In this document: one piece after another, positions 11,342-27,490 of the stretch
Position numbering within the stretch: the stretch's first letter is position 1
Layout of the letters: each line of letters begins with the position of its first letter
Assembly: GCA_017523615.1 (NCBI GenBank)
Contig: JAFWWK010000154.1
Location: forward strand, 1-57,736
DNA: 57,736 nucleotides
Direction: 5' to 3'
From: Clostridia bacterium
Lineage (GTDB): Bacteria > Bacillota > Clostridia > Christensenellales > Aristaeellaceae
Position numbers and translations under genes: made by a program
Notes under the pieces: generated by a model
Seen by the model: the letters and a program-made list of their open reading frames with translations, nothing else
The model's database searches: none
Told to the model about the DNA's origin: nothing

Positions 11342-12520
11342 TTACATGCCGTAGATACCCGCAAAGCGGCGGACCAGTTTTTCCCCGTCCTTCGCTTCAC
11401 CGGCGCCGATCACATTGATGTTCAGTTCCTGGGCTCTGGCCCTCATGGCGGCGCTGTTCCGGCTGACGGTGTTCGCCGACGTCACAATGGCCGCGTATGA
11501 ACCGGCCCCGCCGAAGCGATCCCTAAGAATGGCCAGTTCGTTCAGAGCCTCGGTCCGGATCTCGGTGGCTTTGCAGGAGATGAAAATGGGCTTGACCCCC
11601 CGGACGGCCATGACATCGATCTCGTTGGTGACACTTCCCTCACCCCGTCCACCATAATGCCAATTGACCGCCGCCGACAGGATCACATCGTTGAAAAGCC
11701 CGGACTCGATGCAGGCGCGGTACACATGCACCTCCAGCGCGCTGCCCACATCCCTCAGCCAGAACCGGACCAGGGGAGACTTGAATGCAAAGGCGACCTC
11801 TCCGTCCGTGACCTCAAGGCCCCGGATCAATCCGCCGTCCTCCAGCATACGCAGCATTTCCATGTTGGCGCTGACCTGCCCCCGGTCTCCCTTGACCGAA
11901 GCAGGTCCCCGGGCTGTCAGCTCCTTTTCAAAGTTCTGGGAGATCCGCTGCATATACGTGACCGCACTGTGCCATTCCTTTTTAAATCGGCAGTAGACTT
12001 TCCACAGGAGCTCCATCTCCGGAAGAGAATCCTTCAAAAGGGAATTGTCTTCCCGGCCCTGCTTCAGGCTGCCGCCGGCCATCAGGAAGCAGTCCGCACA
12101 GGTAAGGGATACCCCGCAGGGAAGGCTGTCTGCGAAGGGCGCGTTTTTGATGTCGAAAAAAGTATTCCGTTTATGACTGTATGTAAAGACGGGCACGTCT
12201 TCACCTCCGGCTACCATTCCGGCTGCAAACAGGGCGGAATCCGTCCCTCCGGCAATGTCAATGGCGCAGTCTTCGCATTTTTCCAATACCCCTCGCAGAG
12301 CCTCGACAACCTCGCCGGTGTTCAGCATGTTCACCGGAACAAAAACGCACCGGGTATCGACGCCTCTGCTTTGAAAATACCTTTCCAGCGAGGTCTTCAT
12401 CGCGGGGGAATCAGCCACCTCGGAGGGACAGATAAAAACCGTGCTCTCAGGGCGGAACATCTCCGCAGCCAGGACATTTTCCATCGGTCTTTCGTCATAC
12501 AGTTCGATCAGCGTTTTCAT
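11342..12520 (-). CDS. Card1/Can2-like CARF-domain nuclease (DUF1887 family)
   Basis: 392-residue protein with two parts. The N-terminal CARF-like Rossmann domain (about 1-150) has DIAGGTDSALFAAG at 88-101, corresponding to the GGT-type nucleotide-binding motif. The C-terminal part (about 255-392) is a PD-(D/E)xK restriction-like domain: LEVHVY (E263), NEID (E300, D302) and ISCK (K317). Known relatives are metal-dependent single-strand nucleases that type III CRISPR systems switch on with cyclic tetra-adenylate. Here the acidic residue before xK reads Ser (S315). Length matches the family (about 375-390). The ATG at 12520 has AGGAGA 7 nt upstream. No cas gene or repeat array is in the window. 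It has its own promoter, facing a histidine-phosphatase gene. Confidence 0.82.
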   Translation of the reverse strand: MKTLIELYDERPMENVLAAEMFRPESTVFICPSEVADSPAMKTSLERYFQSRGVDTRCVFVPVNMLNTGEVVEALRGVLEKCEDCAIDIAGGTDSALFAAGMVAGGEDVPVFTYSHKRNTFFDIKNAPFADSLPCGVSLTCADCFLMAGGSLKQGREDNSLLKDSLPEMELLWKVYCRFKKEWHSAVTYMQRISQNFEKELTARGPASVKGDRGQVSANMEMLRMLEDGGLIRGLEVTDGEVAFAFKSPLVRFWLRDVGSALEVHVYRACIESGLFNDVILSAAVNWHYGGRGEGSVTNEIDVMAVRGVKPIFISCKATEIRTEALNELAILRDRFGGAGSYAAIVTSANTVSRNSAAMRARAQELNINVIGAGEAKDGEKLVRRFAGIYGM

Positions 12521-12565
12521 ATCATTGTCTCCTGTTCCCGGTCCGGATTTGTCATCGAGGAAAAC

Positions 12566-12594
12566 AGCATACGGCCTCCGCATGGTGTTGTCAA
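12566..12594 (-). promoter_or_regulatory. promoter of the Card1-like gene
   Basis: Reverse strand: TTGACA at 12594-12589, a 17-nt spacer, and TATGCT at 12571-12566, about 46 nt upstream of the start codon. The -35 overlaps the -35 of the opposite promoter. Confidence 0.75.
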
Positions 12595-12616
12595 GAAAAA
12601 TAAACTGCTTTATAAT
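12588..12616 (+). promoter_or_regulatory. promoter of the histidine-phosphatase gene
   Basis: TTGTCA at 12588-12593, a 17-nt spacer, and TATAAT at 12611-12616. It implies a 5' UTR of about 127 nt. The -35 hexamer shares five bases with the divergent -35. Confidence 0.75.
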
Positions 12617-12749
12617 GAATCCATCCGGGTTTTCCACCTCGCCGGCGGAGCCCGGTCTTCAGACATGTTTTTCCCGGCTGCATTATCGGCCGGGCATCTT
12701 GGGAAGCCGCTTTTTTATCTGGCTTCCGTCTTTACAGGAGAACTGCCGC

Positions 12750-13544: not shown

Positions 13545-14672
13545 TCAGAAGAGTTCCTCCCGCGGGTACGCCCTGATCATGCGGCAGATCTTGATCAGCG
13601 GCTTTCTCCGCAGGATCTGCCGGCCCGGCTGCCCCGGTATGTCCAGCGCCTCAAAACCGATAAAGGCCAGTGGATGATCCCCGAGGCTTTTTGCCACCGC
13701 GGCGCGGTCGTGACTGTATTCTTCGTACATGGCCCTGGACAGCTCGGCGATCTGATCTGCACGTGAAAACAGTTCCTCCAGCTGCCAGTCATAGTATTTC
13801 AGCACTTTCGCGTCCCTCGGGCGGATCCCGCACAGCTTCACGATGTTCTGCCCGCCGTTCAGTATCAGGTCCAGGCAGTTTTCCCTTGTGAGGGTCAGGG
13901 TAAACACTTTATGTCTGACCAGATAATCGGGATTTTTGATCTTGACCCGGTGCCAGGCGGCGTCCACGACCACAAAACCCTCATGCCGCACCTCCGTTTC
14001 CCGGTCATTGAGACGGGCGGCCGCCGCGACACAATCCGCCAGGCTGGTCAGTGGAAAGCGCGCAGGACGCGCGACACCGATATCCTCGTCGGATTCCTGG
14101 CCTGTGCGGTTGTCCTTCGTCCCGATATGATAAAGGAAAGGCCGCTCATAGTGCACGATGACCCGGACCTCCGGACCGACCAGTTCGAAGAGGTATGTCT
14201 TATGCCTGTCCAGTGTTTCAAAACGAAGATCGGAATAGTTTTCTGTGTTTTGGACCGCCTCCAGGAAGGTATGCCCCAGCGGAGAGCTTTCGATCATCGC
14301 CTTAGCGGCGTCGATCACGCCGTTTGTTGAAAATATCCACCGTCCCCGACGCTCCGAATACCAGAGTTTCATGATAGAGCCGTCCACTTTTTCCTGTACT
14401 TCCGCCGTGCCCCAGTCGATGAGGTCCGCATAGCTCTCGGTATAATTTCCGAATTTACGGAAAGGCCAGCATACCACCTCCAGGCGTTCCGTATCTATGA
14501 TGATGCCCCGCGCCTCCTGGACCAGGGGATCGGTGAAATCCGAATCATAACTGTAAAGGAACAGCGCGTAAACGCCGTCCCTGCGGATCTTCAGGCCATA
14601 GCCTCTCTCAAGACCCGTCTCCCAGTCCGGGTGCTCCGCCATGTAACGGCACAGGAAGGATCTTTCATTCAA
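13545..14672 (-). CDS. ATP-dependent RNA ligase, T4 Rnl1-like
   Basis: 375-residue nucleotidyltransferase ligase that would seal 3'-OH and 5'-phosphate RNA ends. Ordered motifs: motif I EKVDGSI with Lys95 as the adenylated residue, motif III FELVGP (162-167), motif IV EGFVVVD (231-237) and motif V RVKIKNPDY (242-250). Upstream RGIIID and FRKFGNY resemble the Rnl1 N-terminal region. The start is a TTG at 14672 in the overlap TTGA with the upstream kinase-HD gene; AAAGGAG lies 6 nt before it. Tight coupling with an end-healing enzyme indicates an RNA repair operon. The RNA substrate (tRNA being the classical one) is an inference from T4. Confidence 0.9.
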   Translation of the reverse strand: MNERSFLCRYMAEHPDWETGLERGYGLKIRRDGVYALFLYSYDSDFTDPLVQEARGIIIDTERLEVVCWPFRKFGNYTESYADLIDWGTAEVQEKVDGSIMKLWYSERRGRWIFSTNGVIDAAKAMIESSPLGHTFLEAVQNTENYSDLRFETLDRHKTYLFELVGPEVRVIVHYERPFLYHIGTKDNRTGQESDEDIGVARPARFPLTSLADCVAAAARLNDRETEVRHEGFVVVDAAWHRVKIKNPDYLVRHKVFTLTLTRENCLDLILNGGQNIVKLCGIRPRDAKVLKYYDWQLEELFSRADQIAELSRAMYEEYSHDRAAVAKSLGDHPLAFIGFEALDIPGQPGRQILRRKPLIKICRMIRAYPREELF

Positions 14673-15586
14673 AGCGGACTCCTTTCATGGGCAAAAGCAT
14701 CGGCCCGGCTCAGCTGTTCCAGTTCCCGGAACATTCCTTCTCCCATCAGTTTGCGGTCGTTTTCCTGCGAACCCGGATTCTGCGGCCACTTATTGACAAA
14801 ACACATATGCCAGTTGATGAGACCTGCAATATACAGCGTCTCCCGCCATCTGTTTTCCGGCACGGCAGTGCTCAGCTTTTCGCACAGGTACAGGTACGCG
14901 CCGTAGTTTTCGTGTCCGTAATAATGCGCGTAAACCGTCGCCTCGCCGCTTCTTGTCAGGAAACCCCTGGTATACATCTTCCCGATATCATGATACCATG
15001 CCGCTTCCTGCACAGATGGACTGAAGCCATTCATCCGGGCATAATCCCTGGCGGCGTCCAGATGGGCCCCCAGGGTCAGCGCGTGGTAAGGATTCTCCTG
15101 ATCAAAAGACGCCGCTGCCTCCCGCGGAAATCTGTAAGGCCCGTCGTTATACACATAGCGGATCTCGTCCCAGCCTTCGTAATAATACGGCGTTTCAAAG
15201 CCGCACAGCATTTCGTGGATGGACCTGTCCGGAACGACTCGGGACCTTAGCCTGTTCCTTTCCAGAAGAGTCTCCGGCCTGCTCAAAACAATCACGCAGG
15301 TCTTTTTGACGTTCTGAAGCCGCAAATCGCTCAGTGAGGCCATTCTGCGCCTTCGGCGGAGATTGGAGGCGTCGATCACGCAGGGGGATCCTTCTTGAAG
15401 GTCGTGCCGGGTCCTCCCGATCAGGATTTTGAATATCTCCGGCGCGTTTCCCTGGATCCCTTCGCTTCCGTACAGTTCCCGGCGGATAGCGTCGGAAGAA
15501 TGGATCCTGTATCCCAGACGCCGGTATTTTTCCGCTTCGCGGCTTTTGCCGCTGGCCGGAACACCTGTCAGCATGACCAGTTCCAT
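14669..15586 (-). CDS. polynucleotide kinase-like P-loop domain fused to a C-terminal HD phosphohydrolase
   Basis: 305-residue two-domain protein. Residues 1-150 are a T4-Pnk-like P-loop kinase: GVPASGKS at 8-15, SSDAIRREL with Asp32 as the likely general base, and an arginine-rich lid near 111-121. Residues about 165-305 are an HD domain: H175, H199-D200, H221, H225 and D296. This would phosphorylate 5'-OH ends and hydrolyse 2',3'-cyclic or 3'-phosphates. The known HD-Pnk enzyme of Runella has the opposite domain order. The ATG at 15586 is preferred because it directly precedes the first strand; a GTG at 15613 sits in a hairpin (15605-15632). It overlaps the ligase start by 4 nt. Confidence 0.85.
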   Translation of the reverse strand: MELVMLTGVPASGKSREAEKYRRLGYRIHSSDAIRRELYGSEGIQGNAPEIFKILIGRTRHDLQEGSPCVIDASNLRRRRRMASLSDLRLQNVKKTCVIVLSRPETLLERNRLRSRVVPDRSIHEMLCGFETPYYYEGWDEIRYVYNDGPYRFPREAAASFDQENPYHALTLGAHLDAARDYARMNGFSPSVQEAAWYHDIGKMYTRGFLTRSGEATVYAHYYGHENYGAYLYLCEKLSTAVPENRWRETLYIAGLINWHMCFVNKWPQNPGSQENDRKLMGEGMFRELEQLSRADAFAHERSPL

Positions 15587-15704
15587 ATTGCCTTTCCCTG
15601 CTGCGAGGGGCACGGTTTAAAAAAGCCCCCTCAGATTATTCGATCGCTTTTAAAACCGAAAAAGAAGTATGCGATGCTTTCGACCGGATTTGTTTTTGGT
15701 TCTC

Positions 15705-16457
15705 TCACGCGGATCCTTCCGGTCCCTGCGCATCGTGCTCCTTTCCCGCCAACGAAATACAGCGATGACCGCCGCCTTCTGTGATCAGCAGCACGGTATT
15801 CTTTCCGCAGTCACGGATATCAAGCGCTGTCATGATATCCAGGAACGCCCGTTTTGCCTGTTCCAGGTCGTCCAGGGGAGCCTCTCGCCGCTTCAGGTAC
15901 TTTTCCAGTTCGGGCAGGTGTTCCCCGATCGCCTGCTTGGTGTAAACCTCGATGCCGTCACGCAAAGCCAGAGCCTGGCCGAACTGAAACGCCATGCTTT
16001 TGATCCTTTCCAGCCTGTCTTCCAGGGATATCTCCCACCTGAGGGCGCGCAGGTCGGCGGACCGCGCCAGCTGCATCCTGTCCAGGTATGTTCCTTTCAG
16101 CGCTTTTTGGGCCGCGTCATATAAAGCAGTATGCCGCAATTCCATGATGAACTTGCGCAGAACGGACAGGTATTTCAGTTCCCTGTCCCGGGGGACCGCG
16201 CGCAGGATCATCAGTGCGTCCCGCTGGGCATGCAGCGGATATGTCGCAGCCACCGCGTTGTTCACTTCATCCGGAAACCCTTTGTAGCACGCAGAAACAA
16301 CCCCGTCCGATACCACGGCCAGATTGCGGTTTTCACTGCGGTCCGCGCTGCAGAAAACGGCGCACTCCCGCAGCGACGGCAGATGGTCCGTGATGTACAG
16401 TACATCACAGTCAACACTGTCTGACGAGCCATGGATATATCGGGCCAGAATATTCAT
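15705..16457 (-). CDS. nucleotidyltransferase-like protein of the RNA-repair operon
   Basis: 250 residues. HGSSDSVDCDVLYI at 9-22 resembles the GS...DxD motif of polymerase-beta-fold nucleotidyltransferases (G10-S11, D16, D18), but the spacing is shorter than usual. Other blocks are KGFPDEVNNAVAATY and a helical C-terminal half. The extreme C-terminus is charged. The start ATG at 16457 has GGAGG upstream. It is 118 nt upstream of the kinase-HD gene on the same strand, and therefore probably the first gene of the operon. About 180 nt separate it from the terminator of the giant gene; no clear promoter was found there. It may transfer a nucleotide to RNA ends or a protein, but function is unknown. 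Confidence 0.6.
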   Translation of the reverse strand: MNILARYIHGSSDSVDCDVLYITDHLPSLRECAVFCSADRSENRNLAVVSDGVVSACYKGFPDEVNNAVAATYPLHAQRDALMILRAVPRDRELKYLSVLRKFIMELRHTALYDAAQKALKGTYLDRMQLARSADLRALRWEISLEDRLERIKSMAFQFGQALALRDGIEVYTKQAIGEHLPELEKYLKRREAPLDDLEQAKRAFLDIMTALDIRDCGKNTVLLITEGGGHRCISLAGKEHDAQGPEGSA

Positions 16458-16729: not shown

Positions 16730-19700
16730 TCATTTCCTGCGGCGCCTGCGCATCCCGTAATAGACTCCTCCGCCCGCCAGACCCAGCAGCGCGGCGCCGG
16801 CCCCGGCGTAAAGGATCATGCGTTTGGTGGAAACACCTTTCCTGCCGGCCGTGAAGGTGGCAGTGCCGCCGTCGTACAGGCATTTGGTCACATTTCCGTA
16901 CTTGCCGGCATTCCGGTTGGAGGAGTTGTATCCATTCACTCCCGAAAGCATGACATAGTATTCATGTTCGGCGTCCAGTCCGCTCAGTCGGCACCATCCG
17001 GTATCATCCGGGATCAGGCTGACATCCCCAACCCTGCCTTCTTCGTTGTAAAGCACCGCGCTCACCGTGCGGTAAGTATAAACGGGTTCGTCGCCGCCTT
17101 CCGTAAACCGGACCCTGACGGAGAACATCACGCCCCGGTGAAACTGTACCGTTCCGCCCGAGAACACCTCGTCGTTGTCGTCGGCATTTTCCCCGGAATT
17201 CACATAGGTCACCGTGGTATTGCCGTCAGCCACGACGGCCCTTGCGGTATATTTGACAGCCTTGCCATCCGTGTCCGCATAAGGCAGTCCCAGGATGGCA
17301 AATTCGTTCCCGTCGGCCTCAAACCGGTTCCCGGTTTCGACACCGTTGGCGTACAGCGTCCATTCCGCCATCTCTCCCGGCACATTGGACTGAACGCCGT
17401 TTTCATCCGTAAATTCGGCGCGGAAGCGGAAATCCGTCGTCCTGAATGAGCAGTTGAGGATGCACTCCCGGTTTTCGGTCATCGTACCTTCGGAGTTTTC
17501 CGTCCTGACAGTATATCTCATGCCTGTTTCGCTTGTTACGGTATATCGGGTACCCTGGGGAAGGTCAGTGATCACAGCCGTCGTATCCGGCTTGATCGTC
17601 AGTGTGCCGCCGGATGAGATCGTCTCCTCCGGGGCGCCGGTCACGGGGTATTCTCCCTTCAGTTCCACTCCGTCCGCTGTCAGAACGACCTTGCAGGGGA
17701 TCGCTTCCCTGTTGCCTGTGACCGTTATCTTCAATTCAAGCGCGTACTCGACCACGAAGCGGATCATATCCGTAACGCCTTCGGAACCTCTGACTGTCTC
17801 AGAAACGCTCAAGGTCCCATCCAGACCGTCGGAAATATAGGCTTCGACCGTATATTCGCTCTCCACGTCCGAACAAGAGACCGTATAAACAAACCGTTTG
17901 CCGGCATCCGCCTGTGAAAAGGCGATCGGTGAAAAGACATTCACACCCTCGATAGCGGTGATCTCCTCCACAACGTTGCCGTCCGTATCCTTCAGGGTCA
18001 AACGAGGGCTTTCCCCGCTGCCGGTCCCGGTCACCACCATTTTGGCGCGGATGGTCAGCACTGTCGTCGCAGAAAAACTGTTGCGGAAGGCGTATCCGCT
18101 GCCGGTGGTCACGATCTTCAGCACACCGCCGCCTTCGTCGGAAACCTTCACCGTAACGATCTGTTTTTCGGTGCTCAGCGGCACCCCGGCTTCTGATGTC
18201 GCGGTCTCGGAGATCTCATAGATATGCGTCCCGACATCGTCGATTCCATATTCAATGGGATCGAACCGGACCACCCCTTCGTCGTCGTTGCTCTTCTGCT
18301 GGATGGTTTTTCCGTTCTCTGTCATCGTCAGGGTAAAGCTGTCCCTGCTCAGGGCCCTCCCGATCAGGTTCACCTCGGAAGTGATCACCGCCTGACCGGA
18401 CGCCTGATATCTGTTACGGAAAGCGGGAGTATCGGCATATTCGCATGTGATCCCCCCCTGCCCGTCGTCCTTCACCGTCACCAGCAGAGGATACACCGTT
18501 TCGTCGTATGTGATCCCGGCTTCGTTCCCGGGGATCTGGGACAGTTCCAGCGAAAGGATTCCCACATCATTCTGTGTCAGGGGCAGCGCGTTGAATGCGA
18601 CCCGGCCCGTACCGTCGCATTGCGCCGTCATCATCTTCTCCCCGTCACGGTACAGCGCAAGCATGAATTGTTTTTCTCTCAGCTCCCTCCCGGCCAGGAT
18701 GACCTGGGCGCTTACCTTCAGTTCTCCCGACGAGGTATAGGTGTTCACGTAAGTGACCCCGTTTTCGGGGTACTCGACCACGGTCTCAAGCTCTCCCGTG
18801 CCCCTGTCGATCACGTTCACCCGAACGGTATACCTCCGGTTCTGGATCGTGACCCCCTTATGGCTGGTGTCAAGCTGCATCACCTGGTAAGTATGGACGC
18901 CTGTGTCATCCGTATTATAGAAGATGTCGAATCCCGCTCTTCCGTTTTTGTCGGAACGGGCAGTCGCGATCACGCTGTCGTGCTCCACCAGGGCAAAGGC
19001 AAACTCGTCGTTCTTCAGTTCCCTTCCTTCCAGAGAAACGTTCAGGTCCACCCGGGCATAACCCGCCGATAGATAGCTGAGGGGGACGGTGAGGCCGTCT
19101 TCCGTCTGGAAGGAAAGCGTTCCGTCATTGTTATCCCTGACAGTAACGCGCACCGGTACGCCATCCTCTGGGGATACCATGCCGCTGTAAGCGTCCGAGG
19201 AAGCGTAGATCAGGTAATCATGGGGCCCTACGTCATTTCCTGTAAATTTGACCGGAGAGAATACGACCCTTCCGTCAGAATCATTGGTCCCCTCTGAGAC
19301 CATATTCCCATCCTGGGTCAGGGTCAGCTTCACCACATCCCCGGCGGGCGAAAAACCCGTGCATGAAATCACCGCTTCCGGCACCCACTCGCCCGAAGAT
19401 GCGTATCCGTTGGCAAAGACAGGGGATCCGGACGCTTCGCATTTGAGGGTGCCGTCGTTTTCTTCGGTAACGCGGACCGTTACCGTCCGCACCGATTCGT
19501 CATACACCACACCGCTTAGCCCGCCCTTCTCCTGACGGATACGGTATACATGCTCTCCAACGTCCTGAAGCGCATAATCGATGGCGGGGAAGATCACGGT
19601 CCCGTCCTCTTCGTTGACCGCGCTGGTCTGATTGCCTTTCTCATCCTCAAGGACAAGGGTGAAGTCGCCTTCGCCAAAGCTCACCCTTTCAGATGTGACC

Positions 19701-22700
19701 GAACAGGTGATCTGTGCGGAGCCGGTGGGTGCATACACATAATTCATCGGTACAGGCATCTCAATGTCCGTTGAAACGGAGATAGCGCCCTTCTGGTCAT
19801 CGACGGCAAATGCGGCGATCTGTACGCTCCCGTCTCCGGAAACGCCGCCCGGAAGCGTTCCATACAGCTTCACCGTGTATTCCTTTGCCCCGGCGCCGCC
19901 TTCAACAAACAGGATATCCGGAAATACGGCGATACCCTTTTCGTCGACGGAAGCCGTGCCCAGGGTCGTATAGCCGTCCATCAGAACATAGCTGATCTCA
20001 CCTTCCCTGATGTCCCTCCCGCTCATCACAGCCCGGACACTGATCCTGAAAGCTCCTTCGGAGCGGTATCTGTAGGAAAAGACCGCTTCCTCAGGAACAG
20101 AAATATCAAGGGCTCCGTCCCCCTTGTCCGCGACTGTGATCTTTATCAGGACCGTTTCTTCTCCCATCATGGTCAGGGAAGGGTGGGGAGCGTTTGCCGG
20201 GCGCACTGTATATGTATGTTCGCCCTCGTCAGCCTGGGTATATTTGAGATGTGCGAGCACAGCCCGGCCCGCTTCGTCCGTTCCGGCGCGGCCGATCTCC
20301 CGGCCTTCCTCCTCCAGGATGTAAACGAATTCGCCCGCGGCGATCTCCCGTCCGGTGACCTCAGCGCGGACGGAAATCTCTGTTTCCCCTTCGGCCTGGT
20401 AAATATTTTCAAATACCGGGACCGCGGACTGTGTGACCTTCAGCGTGCCGTCCGCGGAGTCCTCCACGATCAGGGACACCGCAGCAGTTTTCCTGTCAAG
20501 GGTATAACCGTTCATATCACCGCCGGTCTGAGTGACAGTATATTCCCACGTGCCCACCTTTGATTCGTCAAATGCGATCGGATCAAATACGATCTTTCCG
20601 TCGGCCCCGCAGGTTTTTTCATCCACAGTCCCGTCAGCGCCGGTCAGGGTAAAGGTGAACTGGCCTTCCTCCAAAGTCCTTCCCGCAAGATGCGCTTCGC
20701 AGACGATGCCGATGTTGCCTTCCGCGGTATACTTTACCTCGAAGGGCTCATATTCCTGGCTTTCGATCCACCAGCTCATCCTGCCCATTCCGTCGGCGCG
20801 GACCTCCACCGTTGCGTTTGTCCTGCCTGAAAGCAGTTCGGTACCGTCAGGCAAGGAAGTGAGGGCGACCTCATATCTGTGGATCCCTTCATCGCCGCTT
20901 TGATAGGAAATGCCGAACGCGGCCTGCCCACGGGCGTCATTTGTCCCGGTGGCTTTCTGCTGTCCATTCTCTGTCAGAGCAAAGGTAAACTCTCCTTCCC
21001 TGACGGGCCTCCCCTTCATCGATATCCCGGAGGTGACGGTCATTTCCCCGATGTTGGCAAGCCTGTTTTCAAAAGCAGGCGCTTCGGATACGATCTCCGC
21101 CTCCATGTTTCCCAAGCCGTCGTCCCTGACTTCCACCGCGACCTCGAACGTCCTGCCGTCATAGATCATGCCCGGCAGGTCGCCTGCTTTCTGAACGACC
21201 GTATAAGTGTGGGTCCCCGCATCCCTCTGGGTGTATCGGACAGCCGGGAAAGCAAAGGTCCCGTCCTTTTCGTTGGAAGCGGCCCCGATCACGACGCCGT
21301 TATCAAGGAGCTCAAACTTAAAGTCACCTTCCGCGGCGATGTAATCCGCAGCCCGGACCGTGCCGGAAACGGCCGCCTCGCCGGAAGCCTCATAGGAAAC
21401 GCGGAAGACGATGCTTTCCGCCTCGGGGGATTTGGTCACGGTCATGGTCCCGTTGCCCAAATCCTTCAGCCCCACCCGGAAGGTGATATTCCCGGTGTCC
21501 GCAGTCAGTCCGGCATTTTCGGGCACGGGTCTCATGGATACCGAGAGCATCAGGCTGTTGTCACTGATAAGGACACCGTTCATCGGGACCAGGTCATCCT
21601 GTGTAAAGACCAGGTCCTGGAAAACGATCAGCCCATCCGAATTATTGACGCCTGTGGTGATCAGGCGATCGCCGCAGCGGACTTCAAAGGCAAATTCGCC
21701 GTCACGTATCGCCCGTCCGGAGAGGATCACCTTGCCGTTCAGGTATGCAGTACCCACTGTCCTGTATTCGTTGTTGAAACGGATATCCCCGCTCAGCCTC
21801 TCTGCGTTCAGGGTGCCGTCACCGTTGTCGGTCACTTCGACGATCAGCTCATACACCGTCCTGTCCAGATGGATCCCGCCCAGCTCAAGTCCGGTCTGCC
21901 GCACGGCGTACACATGACGTCCCACGTCCTGTTCGGAATAGTCGATCTGGCTGAATTCGATCACGCCGTCACTGCCGTTCTGCCTGGTACGGATCGTCCT
22001 GCCGTTTTCCAGGATCTCGAAAGTGAACTGACCCTCGGATACAACACTGTTATTCAAAAACACCCTGGCCTGGGGCGTGTAGCTGCCGGAAGCCGCATAG
22101 CCGCAGAAGAACTGCATATCGTCCGCGCATTCGGCATCCACATCCAGCGTACCGTCGCCCCTGTCGGTCACGGTCACGGTAATGTCAAAGGAATTGCTGT
22201 CGCGGACCACACCCTGCGGCACAGTCTCATTCTGTACGCAGGTGTATTCGTGAACACCGACATCTTTCACGGTGTAAACCACCGGATCGAACCGGATATC
22301 TCCGTTGGCGTCGGCCGAACCCGTACTCACCGCCACATTGTCCTCCAGCAGTGAGAAGGACAGTTCCCCGGACTTCAGATCACGGCCCGTCATGGTCACG
22401 CCGGCCTGGGCGCTGTAGCTTCCCAAAGCGGAATAGACAAACTCAAACACCGGAGGCTTTCCTTCGAGTCTGATCGTCAGGGAGCCCGTGCCCGTATCGG
22501 CCACGTTCACAAGGACCGGATATTCCACCGCGGCGCAGCTGACCCGCGGCGCGGCGGGCAGGACGGCCCTGACCGTGTAAAGATGATCGCCCAGGTCCGC
22601 AAGACTGTAATTGATCTCTTTAAATACCACCTGTCCGGAGGTATCAGCCCACGCTTCGTCGATCACATCCGGCCCCGAGAGGAGCTGGAAAAGAAATTCG

Positions 22701-24889
22701 TTTTCACCGACGGCCCTGTTTTCGAGGGTCATGGAGGCGGCAGGCGCGAAGGCGCCGTAGGCGTGGTAGCCGTTTTCAAAGGTCACGCGCCCGTCAGGAG
22801 AGTCCGTGACGATGCATGACGTGGTCAGGGTCCCGTTCCCGGCGTCCTTCACCGTAACGTCCAGGGTATAGGTCCTGGTATCCAGCATCACCGAATCTGT
22901 CTCCGCGGTATACTGGGAGACCTCCAGGGCATATCTGCCCACCTCGTTCTGGTTGTACCTGATCGGCGGGAATACGATCGTCCCGTCCGCTTCATTGACC
23001 GCTGTCGCGACCGTGCGGCCGTCCTCCTTGTCGCGGATGACGAAAGAGAACTGGCCCGGCTTCATCTCGCCCTCGGTGAAGATGACCCTGCCGACAATTT
23101 CCACCGTGCCCGCGGCGGTATACGAATGGGAAAAGACGATATTGGAGGCATCCGGTTCGAACGTGCATTCAATGTTCCCATTGCTTTTGTCCGTCAGCGT
23201 CACACGGACGGTGATGGAATCACGGTCGATCCTGACGCCGGGAAGGTCCTTGCCCTCGGTGAGCAGGCGGACCCTGTAGGTCAGGGTATTGGTGCGCTGG
23301 CCCGCGCCTTTGCCCTGACGCACATCCTCCAGGCCGTACTCCATCCGGAGCACCGCGTTTCCTCCTGCGTCGGCGGCCGCACTGGCGACCAGATCCTGTC
23401 CCTGGAACAGCCCGTAAGTCAGTTCCCCTTCCTTCAGCCACCTGCCGGAAAAAGCGGTAGTGACGGGCAGTTCCAAAACTCCTTTGGCGTAATACCCGTT
23501 GGTGAAAACGATCTTTTCGCCGGTGTCCGCCTGCAGCCGCCCATCGCCCGCGTCGGAAATCGTTACGGTCACTTCATATTCGTTTTCATCGTATTCCACG
23601 CCGGGCGCGTTGCCTTTCTCCTGAACAACGGTATAATGTTTTTCCCCAATATCCGCGTAAGAATAAGTGATCGCGTCAAAGGCGAAGGTGCCTCCGGCCG
23701 CCGTCACCGCGCGGCCGATCTCGACCCCGTCCTCCTTCAGTACCAGGGTGAATTCTCCTGCCCTGGCGGGGATGAACCTGGCCGGCAGGGAGACCCGCCC
23801 GGAGATCACGCCCTCGCCCGACGCCAGGCATTCGGTAGCAAAAGAGACCGTGGGATACGCGCCGTCAGAAACCTCGGCGTGAAGAGTGCCGTCGCTGTCC
23901 CAGAAAAAAGAAACTTCCTGCACCGTATCCATCACGGGGTCGCCGTTGCCGTCCGATATCGTGATACGCCTTGTTCCAAGATACCCCGTTCCGTTCCACT
24001 CAAGCGTTCCGTCCCCCGCATAAAGGGTGTAAACCGTATCCCGGAGCTCAAGGTACGGTGACAATACCGTTTCCGATATGGCAAATGTCTTCCCCTCGGC
24101 ATCAAAAGGCCAGCCGCTGTCAAGATAAAACAGGGCGGATCCTGTTTCATCGCATTCCAGGACCTTATCCCCGCCTTCTACACCGGAAACAGTAAAGCTG
24201 ACATCGCCCGACGACGGCTGGTAGTACTGCGGAGCATCCATCCCGGCGGCAACGGCCACGGGAAGGATCATATAGCCTGTTTCCGCCACGGCGAATGCGT
24301 TTTCTCCCTCATCAGAAAACCATTTTGCCTCTTTCAGCGGAAGGAATCCGGAGATCAGCCTCTCGGCCCCGCCCTGCGGCAGTTTCCCGCAGTCCATGGA
24401 CATGCCCGCTTCCACAACGCAGCGGTCATAACCCGACATATCCATTCCAAAGGAAAGCTCGGCAAGGCCCGTGTCCGCATTGGAGTTGAGCAGGATTTGG
24501 CTGTCCTCCTTGTCGGCGCACATCAGCACCAGCGTTTTCCCCTCTTCGGTAGTATAAGAAGGTTCAAAATAATAGCTGCCGTTTTCATCATACAGCGTCA
24601 CCCGTACGCTCTCCCAGTCAAATCCGAAAGACCATGGGCAGCTGAAGGGTTTGCCGTCGTCCCTGGCCTCGTCCCCGCTTCCGCTCCACATCCTGAGGAC
24701 GGCGGAAGTGCCAAGGGCATTTTCCCCTTCGCAGGTCAGCGTTACGGTGGTCTTCAGGTCGGAGGAAAGAATACCCCCCATGCTTCGGCAGTCCGGAACG
24801 ACGGTCTCCGCGCCGGCAGACGCACATGCTGCAAAAACGGCGAACGCTGCGGCGGCAGTCAAAACCATGCGGTTATTCTTTATATCCAT
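16730..24889 (-). CDS. giant repetitive surface protein with about 18 pilin isopeptide-linkage-type (Spy0128-like) domains
   Basis: 2,719-residue exported protein. The signal peptide spans about 1-28. A non-repetitive N-terminal region runs to about 354, followed by about 18 domains of 105-125 residues (about 355-2381). Each repeat has the pattern GR-x-[IL]-x-x-GEFTF, DG-x-[IV]-x-F, DVG-x-H-x-YTV and VTV-x-D-x-GDGTL, and often ends F-x-N-x-Y. Two or three different beta-rich domains precede the C-terminal membrane segment and MRRRRRK tail. No LPxTG-type sortase motif is seen, so anchoring is probably by the membrane segment. The start ATG has GAGGTGG upstream. In most repeats the reactive Lys and the catalytic Glu are replaced. 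A stalk or adhesin role is inferred. Confidence 0.85.
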   Translation of the reverse strand: MDIKNNRMVLTAAAAFAVFAACASAGAETVVPDCRSMGGILSSDLKTTVTLTCEGENALGTSAVLRMWSGSGDEARDDGKPFSCPWSFGFDWESVRVTLYDENGSYYFEPSYTTEEGKTLVLMCADKEDSQILLNSNADTGLAELSFGMDMSGYDRCVVEAGMSMDCGKLPQGGAERLISGFLPLKEAKWFSDEGENAFAVAETGYMILPVAVAAGMDAPQYYQPSSGDVSFTVSGVEGGDKVLECDETGSALFYLDSGWPFDAEGKTFAISETVLSPYLELRDTVYTLYAGDGTLEWNGTGYLGTRRITISDGNGDPVMDTVQEVSFFWDSDGTLHAEVSDGAYPTVSFATECLASGEGVISGRVSLPARFIPARAGEFTLVLKEDGVEIGRAVTAAGGTFAFDAITYSYADIGEKHYTVVQEKGNAPGVEYDENEYEVTVTISDAGDGRLQADTGEKIVFTNGYYAKGVLELPVTTAFSGRWLKEGELTYGLFQGQDLVASAAADAGGNAVLRMEYGLEDVRQGKGAGQRTNTLTYRVRLLTEGKDLPGVRIDRDSITVRVTLTDKSNGNIECTFEPDASNIVFSHSYTAAGTVEIVGRVIFTEGEMKPGQFSFVIRDKEDGRTVATAVNEADGTIVFPPIRYNQNEVGRYALEVSQYTAETDSVMLDTRTYTLDVTVKDAGNGTLTTSCIVTDSPDGRVTFENGYHAYGAFAPAASMTLENRAVGENEFLFQLLSGPDVIDEAWADTSGQVVFKEINYSLADLGDHLYTVRAVLPAAPRVSCAAVEYPVLVNVADTGTGSLTIRLEGKPPVFEFVYSALGSYSAQAGVTMTGRDLKSGELSFSLLEDNVAVSTGSADANGDIRFDPVVYTVKDVGVHEYTCVQNETVPQGVVRDSNSFDITVTVTDRGDGTLDVDAECADDMQFFCGYAASGSYTPQARVFLNNSVVSEGQFTFEILENGRTIRTRQNGSDGVIEFSQIDYSEQDVGRHVYAVRQTGLELGGIHLDRTVYELIVEVTDNGDGTLNAERLSGDIRFNNEYRTVGTAYLNGKVILSGRAIRDGEFAFEVRCGDRLITTGVNNSDGLIVFQDLVFTQDDLVPMNGVLISDNSLMLSVSMRPVPENAGLTADTGNITFRVGLKDLGNGTMTVTKSPEAESIVFRVSYEASGEAAVSGTVRAADYIAAEGDFKFELLDNGVVIGAASNEKDGTFAFPAVRYTQRDAGTHTYTVVQKAGDLPGMIYDGRTFEVAVEVRDDGLGNMEAEIVSEAPAFENRLANIGEMTVTSGISMKGRPVREGEFTFALTENGQQKATGTNDARGQAAFGISYQSGDEGIHRYEVALTSLPDGTELLSGRTNATVEVRADGMGRMSWWIESQEYEPFEVKYTAEGNIGIVCEAHLAGRTLEEGQFTFTLTGADGTVDEKTCGADGKIVFDPIAFDESKVGTWEYTVTQTGGDMNGYTLDRKTAAVSLIVEDSADGTLKVTQSAVPVFENIYQAEGETEISVRAEVTGREIAAGEFVYILEEEGREIGRAGTDEAGRAVLAHLKYTQADEGEHTYTVRPANAPHPSLTMMGEETVLIKITVADKGDGALDISVPEEAVFSYRYRSEGAFRISVRAVMSGRDIREGEISYVLMDGYTTLGTASVDEKGIAVFPDILFVEGGAGAKEYTVKLYGTLPGGVSGDGSVQIAAFAVDDQKGAISVSTDIEMPVPMNYVYAPTGSAQITCSVTSERVSFGEGDFTLVLEDEKGNQTSAVNEEDGTVIFPAIDYALQDVGEHVYRIRQEKGGLSGVVYDESVRTVTVRVTEENDGTLKCEASGSPVFANGYASSGEWVPEAVISCTGFSPAGDVVKLTLTQDGNMVSEGTNDSDGRVVFSPVKFTGNDVGPHDYLIYASSDAYSGMVSPEDGVPVRVTVRDNNDGTLSFQTEDGLTVPLSYLSAGYARVDLNVSLEGRELKNDEFAFALVEHDSVIATARSDKNGRAGFDIFYNTDDTGVHTYQVMQLDTSHKGVTIQNRRYTVRVNVIDRGTGELETVVEYPENGVTYVNTYTSSGELKVSAQVILAGRELREKQFMLALYRDGEKMMTAQCDGTGRVAFNALPLTQNDVGILSLELSQIPGNEAGITYDETVYPLLVTVKDDGQGGITCEYADTPAFRNRYQASGQAVITSEVNLIGRALSRDSFTLTMTENGKTIQQKSNDDEGVVRFDPIEYGIDDVGTHIYEISETATSEAGVPLSTEKQIVTVKVSDEGGGVLKIVTTGSGYAFRNSFSATTVLTIRAKMVVTGTGSGESPRLTLKDTDGNVVEEITAIEGVNVFSPIAFSQADAGKRFVYTVSCSDVESEYTVEAYISDGLDGTLSVSETVRGSEGVTDMIRFVVEYALELKITVTGNREAIPCKVVLTADGVELKGEYPVTGAPEETISSGGTLTIKPDTTAVITDLPQGTRYTVTSETGMRYTVRTENSEGTMTENRECILNCSFRTTDFRFRAEFTDENGVQSNVPGEMAEWTLYANGVETGNRFEADGNEFAILGLPYADTDGKAVKYTARAVVADGNTTVTYVNSGENADDNDEVFSGGTVQFHRGVMFSVRVRFTEGGDEPVYTYRTVSAVLYNEEGRVGDVSLIPDDTGWCRLSGLDAEHEYYVMLSGVNGYNSSNRNAGKYGNVTKCLYDGGTATFTAGRKGVSTKRMILYAGAGAALLGLAGGGVYYGMRRRRRK
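17747..23827 (-). repeat. tandem array of about 18 degenerate protein-coding repeats
   Basis: The repeats are about 330-375 nt each and clearly diverged at DNA level, so they are old duplications. The last copy (before about 17747) is the most degenerate. Repeats 2, 3 and 7 are longer because of insertions near the DVG-x-H-x-Y segment. Confidence 0.8.
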
Positions 24890-26170: not shown

Positions 26171-27490
26171 ATGGTCCCGGCCTACACATGCGTCGTATTC
26201 GATCTTGACGGCACCCTGACCGATTCCAGGGAAGGCATATACGCATCCATCCGATATGCCCTTGACAAAAACGGTTTCCCCTGTCCCGGAGAGGACATAC
26301 TCCGCCGTTTTCTCGGTCCGCCGCTGGCGGAATCCTTTATTGCCTGGTGCGGCATGACCGAGGAGGAAGCCGCCCGGGCTACGGAAAGCTACCGTGAGCG
26401 CTACGTTCCCCAGGGCATGCTGGAAAACTCCGTCTATCCCGGGATCCCGGCTCTCCTTAAAAGCCTGAAGGAGGAAGGGATCTTCCTTGCCGTCGCTACC
26501 GGAAAACCGCTGAACGCCACGCGTCCCATTCTTGAGCATTTCGGACTGTGGGACTTTTTTTCATCCGTCGCCTGCCCCTCTCTCAGCGACCTGCACGCAG
26601 ACAAGGCCGTCCTGATCAGGCGCGCCCTTTCCGGCCTTCCCGAAAATGCCCGGGAACGGGTGCTGATGGTGGGCGATATCCCGGGGGACATCCTGGGGGG
26701 GCGGCGCGCCGGCTGTGACACCTGCGCCGCCCTGTGGGGCTACGGGGATGACGACGCCATCCTCTCCTCCTCCCCCACCTTTTCGGCGAAAGACCCCGAC
26801 GCTCTGTTCCGCCTCCTCCTCGGGGACCGGAAACCGCCCCGGGGGCCCTTTATCTCCTTCGAAGGGGTCGACGGCTGCGGCAAATCCACCCAGATCCGCC
26901 TGTTCAGGGCCGAGATGGAAAAAATGGGCTACCGGACCCTGCTGACCCGGGAACCCGGCGGGTGCCCGATCTCCGAAGGGATCAGGGGCATGCTGCTCAC
27001 AAAAGAGGACAACGGCATGTGCGATGAGGCCGAGGCGCTGCTTTTCGCCGCCGCCCGGGCCCAGCACCTGCGCGAGGTCATCCTCCCCGCCCTTTCGAAG
27101 GGATGGGCCGTGATATCCGACCGCTATCTGGATTCATCCCTCGTCTATCAAGGCGCGGGCAGGGGGCTCGGGATGGAATGGATACGCGCTATCAACCGGC
27201 CTGCCGTACGGGACGGGATGCCGGACGTCACCGTCATCCTGACCCTGGACCCGGCGGAAGCCCTGCGCCGGCGGACAAAGCAGGACGCCCCGGACCGGAT
27301 CGAAAAAAGCGGCGGCGCGTTTTTTGACGTCGCCGACCGGGCCTTCCGCCGCCTGGCGGAGGAAGATCCCCTCCGCTGCGCCGCCGTGGACGCCGCCGGG
27401 ACGGAAGACGAAGTCGCTTCCCGGGTGCGGACCGCCGTTTTTTCCCGCCTTTCCGCCCGGAAAAACGAAGGGAGGAAAGAAAACCATTGA
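26171..27490 (+). CDS. tmk: HAD-type phosphatase fused to thymidylate kinase
   Basis: 439-residue bifunctional protein. Residues 1-210 are a HAD hydrolase of the phosphoglycolate-phosphatase type: [10 protein letters not shown] (D11, D13), VATGKP, and [12 protein letters not shown] in place of the usual VGDS. Residues about 224-439 are a dTMP kinase: P-loop GVDGCGKST at 232-240, [20 protein letters not shown] and a lid region rich in Arg. The two active sites lie in one unbroken frame with a short linker. Tmk converts dTMP to dTDP. The HAD half might act on a nucleotide or on phosphoglycolate; this is unknown. GGAGG precedes the ATG. The stop overlaps the mnmA start as TTGA. Confidence 0.9.

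Follow-up and report, generated by a model that had tools for sequence, protein, structure and literature searches.

The polynucleotide kinase-phosphatase Pnkp and the RNA ligase Rnl1 of phage T4 form a tRNA-repair pair. The tRNA anticodon nucleases leave 2',3'-cyclic phosphate and 5'-OH ends; an HD domain removes the 2',3'-cyclic phosphate, a kinase phosphorylates the 5' end, and Rnl1 joins the 5'-phosphate to the 3'-OH. The HD-Pnk of Runella carries both healing domains in one chain, HD first. The main survey of RNA-repair systems is that of Burroughs and Aravind from 2016. DRB0098 of Deinococcus radiodurans is also HD-first (PMC1997131). RlaP has been predicted to restore lost nucleotides ahead of ligation, and a small number of jumbo phages are mentioned as having HD-like phosphatases (PMC7824862). 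Here we describe a three-gene operon in contig JAFWWK010000154.1 of an Aristaeellaceae bacterium (57,736 nucleotides (nt), called the window below), encoding a predicted nucleotidyltransferase (NT), a kinase joined to an HD phosphoesterase (PNK-HD) and a ligase (LIG). On balance, we think that it is a phage-derived set that heals RNA ends, restores nucleotides and seals. What we observed in its favour is the order of the genes, the families and predicted folds of the proteins, the conservation of their active sites, their kinship with genes on viral contigs, and the recurrence of NT beside RNA-repair genes.

All three genes lie on the minus strand. NT (15705..16457) encodes 250 amino acids (aa) and is followed after a gap of 118 nt by PNK-HD, which spans 14669..15586 from its ATG start, or reaches 15613 with a GTG start. 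LIG (13545..14672, 375 aa) begins at a TTG and shares 4 nt (TTGA) with the stop of PNK-HD; a ribosome-binding site, AAAGGAG, lies just ahead. An earlier note on this DNA had described three genes with this overlap, and the open reading frames (ORFs) confirm it. All the frames are open, with catalytic residues intact. They are more than chance ORFs, because a Lachnospiraceae metagenome-assembled genome (MAG; locus L015) carries this trio in unchanged order, with identities of 57, 57 and 62% for NT, PNK-HD and LIG; the idea that NT is a decayed or chance reading frame was rejected. The operon resembles T4 Pnkp and Rnl1 in its Rnl1-like ligase and in having a kinase at the N-terminus and an end-healing phosphatase at the C-terminus of one protein. 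However, this phosphatase domain is HD and that of T4 is HAD, a nucleotidyltransferase gene precedes the pair, and the genes are adjacent in a bacterial chromosome. The window is chromosomal, since DNA polymerase I, DnaE, MreC and a penicillin-binding protein are encoded within it.

Judged by its sequence, LIG is a T4 Rnl1-like ATP-dependent RNA ligase, as the earlier note had proposed. It matches Pfam RNA_lig_T4_1 (PF09511) at E 1.5e-13, with 51.6 bits against a cut-off of 28.3, and phrog_562 at E 2.9e-43. The putative nucleophile is Lys95 in motif I (K95-V-D-G-S), and the regions of motifs III, IV and V align with RNA ligase 2c5u (E 6.2e-6), which is T4 Rnl1. LIG falls below the cut-off of TIGR02308, the T4 RnlA equivalog (36.5 vs 242.25 bits).

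In PNK-HD, the predicted 5'-polynucleotide kinase occupies residues 1-150 (key residues K14, S15, D32, R35 and R114), and the HD domain follows at about 160-301 (H175, H199, D200, H225, H260 and D296), so the kinase-first arrangement described before stands. Pfam detects AAA_33 (E 8.9e-18) and HD (E 0.0096), the latter scoring below its cut-off, which the HD domain of a phage homologue (L033) exceeds with 25.2 vs 22 bits. Over 56 aligned rows, 54 of them distinct, the kinase residues are kept in 53-56 and the HD residues in 51-56; the predicted HD metal site, the lack of which would by the earlier note have spoken against its reading, thus holds at the residue level. Structural matches of the kinase-HD model span the kinase half, and the HD half is therefore assigned from sequence. 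The kinase domain is closest to the Clostridium thermocellum kinase, a likeness to the bacterial Pnkp and Pnkp1-Rnl-Hen1 systems, but PNK-HD lies far under the cut-off of TIGR04075, the bacterial Pnkp equivalog (37.1 bits, cut-off 750), and a distinct kinase protein of Pnkp size is encoded at another place in the host genome.

PNK-HD shares both catalytic domains in a single protein with the HD-Pnk of phage RM378, D. radiodurans and Runella, but departs from their HD-first order: in RM378, HD (18-159) precedes the kinase (190-336). The RM378 protein (L050, 48060-49145) is annotated as a probable poly A polymerase. PHROG 6931, which of the phage families matches PNK-HD best, also looks HD-first, because its kinase occupies 185-339 of 343 residues. 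The reversed order noted earlier is thus real with respect to RM378 and DRB0098, but it is not special to this operon, since it is common in phages and recurs in Paenibacillus. A unique fusion was rejected: 43 of the 80 viral loci among the matches listed, in one scan, share the order. The ratio of 43 to 1 is no census, because a kinase-first query favours its own order, at least 80 loci were listed and a few are near-copies. This viral family may yield useful enzymes for RNA end processing. No title or abstract opening found names a kinase-first HD polynucleotide kinase or the NT family, although the RNA-repair survey and the paper on Hailong may cover parts.

The substrate of the set might instead be broken DNA, or DNA together with RNA, rather than tRNA. 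LIG belongs to the T4 Rnl1 family and not to the DNA ligases, and Thg1 genes, discussed below, stand among the neighbours of NT, so we regard DNA as an improbable target, even though phages offer some hints of it. In phage BcoS-136 a DNA-ligase gene lies four genes on from PNK-HD, although the directly adjoining gene is annotated as RNA ligase, and in L025 PNK-HD stands behind an ORF that by eye resembles an ATP-dependent DNA ligase. The HD-first DRB0098 phosphorylates DNA (PMC1997131).

By its predicted structure (predicted local distance difference test score of 92.5), NT is a nucleotidyltransferase, in agreement with the first assignment of this gene. The model combines a Pol-beta fold with a HEPN-like C-terminal helical domain, and the palm with GS and DxD that marks the Pol-beta superfamily is present. 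The motif GSx4DxD (residues 10-18) keeps its spacing in 15 of 15 aligned rows, and the invariant D63 and E64 are candidates for the third catalytic carboxylate. No matches were found in Pfam and PHROGs up to E 0.1; NCBIfam and PADLOC gave a single sub-threshold line each, and PDB sequences one chance line and nothing else. The family is without a name in the libraries searched and is the novel element of the operon. A single-sequence scan of viral contigs gave no relatives, but the NT alignment as query recovered them, including in phage G and Lak megaphages. In one phage contig (L037, 5971-6681) a stop codon splits the NT frame. Three giant-virus proteins are possible fold relatives (BFVD, E 2e-10 to 5e-9).

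RlaP (PF10127) is likewise a Pol-beta-type nucleotidyltransferase that occurs with RNA ligases. That NT is itself RlaP was rejected: there is no PF10127 match up to E 0.1, the profile-profile probability is 1.2%, and the spacing is x4, whereas GSx10DxD is present in 12 of 12 RlaP rows (three of those counted by eye). Furthermore, NT adjoins a separate Pol-beta/RlaP-like gene in L033 and L045. The best fold matches, which share the palm and helical domain, are HalB of Hailong and the AAD(9)/AadA adenylyltransferases, but identity is 8-15% over the aligned part and gene company differs where seen. A regulatory or sensory role for NT next to a repairing PNK-HD and LIG can be drawn from such matches: NT would nucleotidylate a protein, in the style of the MntA-type antitoxin and HEPN toxin, or, like HalB, would assemble a short oligonucleotide on its own chain or on a different protein. 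We find this rather unlikely. The fold is common to many Pol-beta families, so that the nearest fold tells little about the substrate; the recognised phage neighbours of NT are Rnl1, Pol-beta/RlaP-like, PNK-HD and Thg1 genes; and beside NT the window shows no recognised toxin or channel that could be its partner, though no search was aimed at one, and the L015 contig starts at NT. From its place and fold, NT could act like RlaP as a different enzyme, and it probably adds nucleotides.

The gene company of NT in phages bears on this role. In a 180-kb phage (L033), Rnl1, a Pol-beta/RlaP-like gene, NT and PNK-HD are consecutive; NT overlaps by 4 nt and PNK-HD follows after a 1-nt gap. The Pol-beta/RlaP-like gene scores 26.5 vs 26.9 bits for the Polbeta cut-off and 14.3 vs 23 for RlaP. 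In L045, NT, Thg1 (the tRNA-His guanylyltransferase) and a Pol-beta/RlaP-like gene are contiguous, and in L038 a Thg1 gene stands upstream of NT at a distance of 461 nt, a small putative ORF on the opposite strand lying between the two. Our phage survey covered 16 NT-bearing records (14 from IMG/VR and two Lak). RlaP was found in nine at E 0.001 (eight above cut-off), Rnl1 in nine by a search with known misses, Thg1 in eight and full PNK-HD in two. At least one of the four is present in 15 of the 16, the exception being a 73-kb fragment. Thg1 is close to NT in two of its eight records (expected 0.23, P about 0.02), a weak result tested after being noticed. Adjacency is the evidence that counts for the role of NT, and it is small.

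Among bacteria, PNK-HD matches were found in 12 of 200 drawn genomes of the window's family, where the sole full-length one is the window's own and the partial match L008 is an HD-first protein. A scan of genome contigs with PNK-HD gave 10 loci. The window and L015-L019 form a clade of six genomes. L017 and L018 carry PNK-HD with LIG, L019 has LIG elsewhere in the genome, and in L016 LIG was not found. In Mogibacterium (L020), left out of the alignment and of the clade count, a kinase-first protein is present, and LIG and NT were not found; the match in L024 is confined to the HD part. In Paenibacillus (L022 and L023), PNK-HD is followed by a small KMDGEN protein, by eye an Rnl2-like ligase. 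Absences in these searches are soft, because the loose first look can miss genes and many genomes are incomplete MAGs. Blanks for PF09511 are not absences, since that search missed the window's own ligase, which another search recovered.

The earlier note had expected the three genes to stay together. This is borne out for PNK-HD with LIG, which was found in five of the six clade genomes and is adjacent in four, but not for NT, found in three and adjacent in two. PNK-HD and LIG are thus the core and NT is optional. The third bacterial NT, in the genome of L017, is on a 6-kb contig (L167) away from PNK-HD. All three bacterial genomes found with NT have LIG and PNK-HD, and two of them have the operon. 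Searches of 396 genomes of the order (with a weaker two-row query), 391 of the class and 397 of the L015 family gave no NT beyond those of the window and L015. NT is present in two of nine genomes selected for PNK-HD (L015-L023), against a draw of 395 others (P 0.0004 in a post hoc test).

Several observations weigh against a repair role for NT. Three of the six clade genomes lack it, and in another it is unlinked. Across the stretches read, L033 is the one phage that has NT beside a ligase gene. Its closest folds are a maker of DNA oligomers and drug adenylyltransferases, not RNA-repair polymerases, and its profile comparison with RlaP is insignificant. The figure of 15 in 16 has no baseline for RlaP or Rnl1, and it is less telling than it appears because Thg1 is present in nine of 17 kinase-HD phage records without NT (117-221 kb, from L088-L130). 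A link between NT and Thg1 by shared genomes is therefore unsupported, with eight of 16 NT phages against these controls.

In the tree of PNK-HD, which like those of LIG and NT is unrooted, the six clade proteins form one group (100/99), to which viral contig L087 is sister (99/93); the Paenibacillus proteins branch separately, together with phage BcoS-136 and its relatives (89/81). L087, where the PNK-HD and LIG homologues are adjacent, is also the nearest viral row in the LIG tree (99/96); since this contig is 11 kb, its viral nature depends on IMG/VR. NT clusters with its counterparts from phage G, Lak and L033-L035 (100/98); support for a joint group of the bacterial NT, three in number, is weak (80/60). 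The simplest reading of these trees is capture from phages, with NT arriving through another phage line than the PNK-HD/LIG pair. The operon has a G+C of 0.561 against a window mean of 0.591, in the lowest 2.2% of 2.9-kb window stretches, a weak sign because third-position G+C is much the same in the nearby genes for the CARF and surface proteins. This composition, the very patchy bacterial distribution and the kinship with genes of viral contigs would also fit passenger or decaying phage genes without function in the bacterium. That is hard to reconcile with three open frames that keep their catalytic residues, with ribosome-binding sites and translational overlap, and with a gene order kept in L015 at 57-62% identity, and we give it very little credence.

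In the proposed phage-derived RNA-repair set, the HD domain would open the 2',3'-cyclic phosphate and then take off the 3' phosphate, while the kinase domain would phosphorylate the 5'-OH. Where nucleotides had been lost to a nuclease, NT would extend the freed 3'-OH by one or a few, and LIG would join the healed ends. What we infer is that RNA is the substrate, that each enzyme has its assigned activity, which way the genes were transferred and, most of all, that NT performs its step. More tentatively, NT may found a new phage-spread family of RNA-repair nucleotidyltransferases, with possible fold relatives in giant viruses. This family would act alongside RlaP and Thg1 at a stage served by neither, for instance the rebuilding of a tRNA end ahead of ligation by Rnl1, and a few bacteria would have captured it together with the kinase-HD and ligase to protect themselves from nucleases that cut RNA. 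Should NT extend broken RNA ends with nucleotides, the operon would be a compact set to heal, refill and reseal them, and would offer a testable way into the question of how cells and large phages withstand nucleases that cut and remove nucleotides.

Other genes of the window were also recorded. A CARF-PDDEXK protein of the Card1/Can2 kind is encoded at 11342-12637 on the minus strand (PF09002, E 1.2e-8; PADLOC CARF4, E 4.4e-39). A functional tie of this nuclease to the operon was set aside, because a plus-strand histidine-phosphatase gene stands between them and no L015 ORF seen resembles it. A repetitive ORF of 2719 aa with a hydrophobic C-terminal end (16730-24889, minus strand) is by eye probably a surface protein, and a 439-aa ORF (26171-27490, plus strand) combines HAD-type hydrolase and thymidylate kinase domains. 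Elsewhere in the same genome, a second, separate cluster resembling RNA repair (L053, contig C133, 2674-11646) contains an 874-aa Pnkp-sized ORF, whose kinase part matches PNK-HD, and two RlaP-family genes above the PF10127 cut-off.
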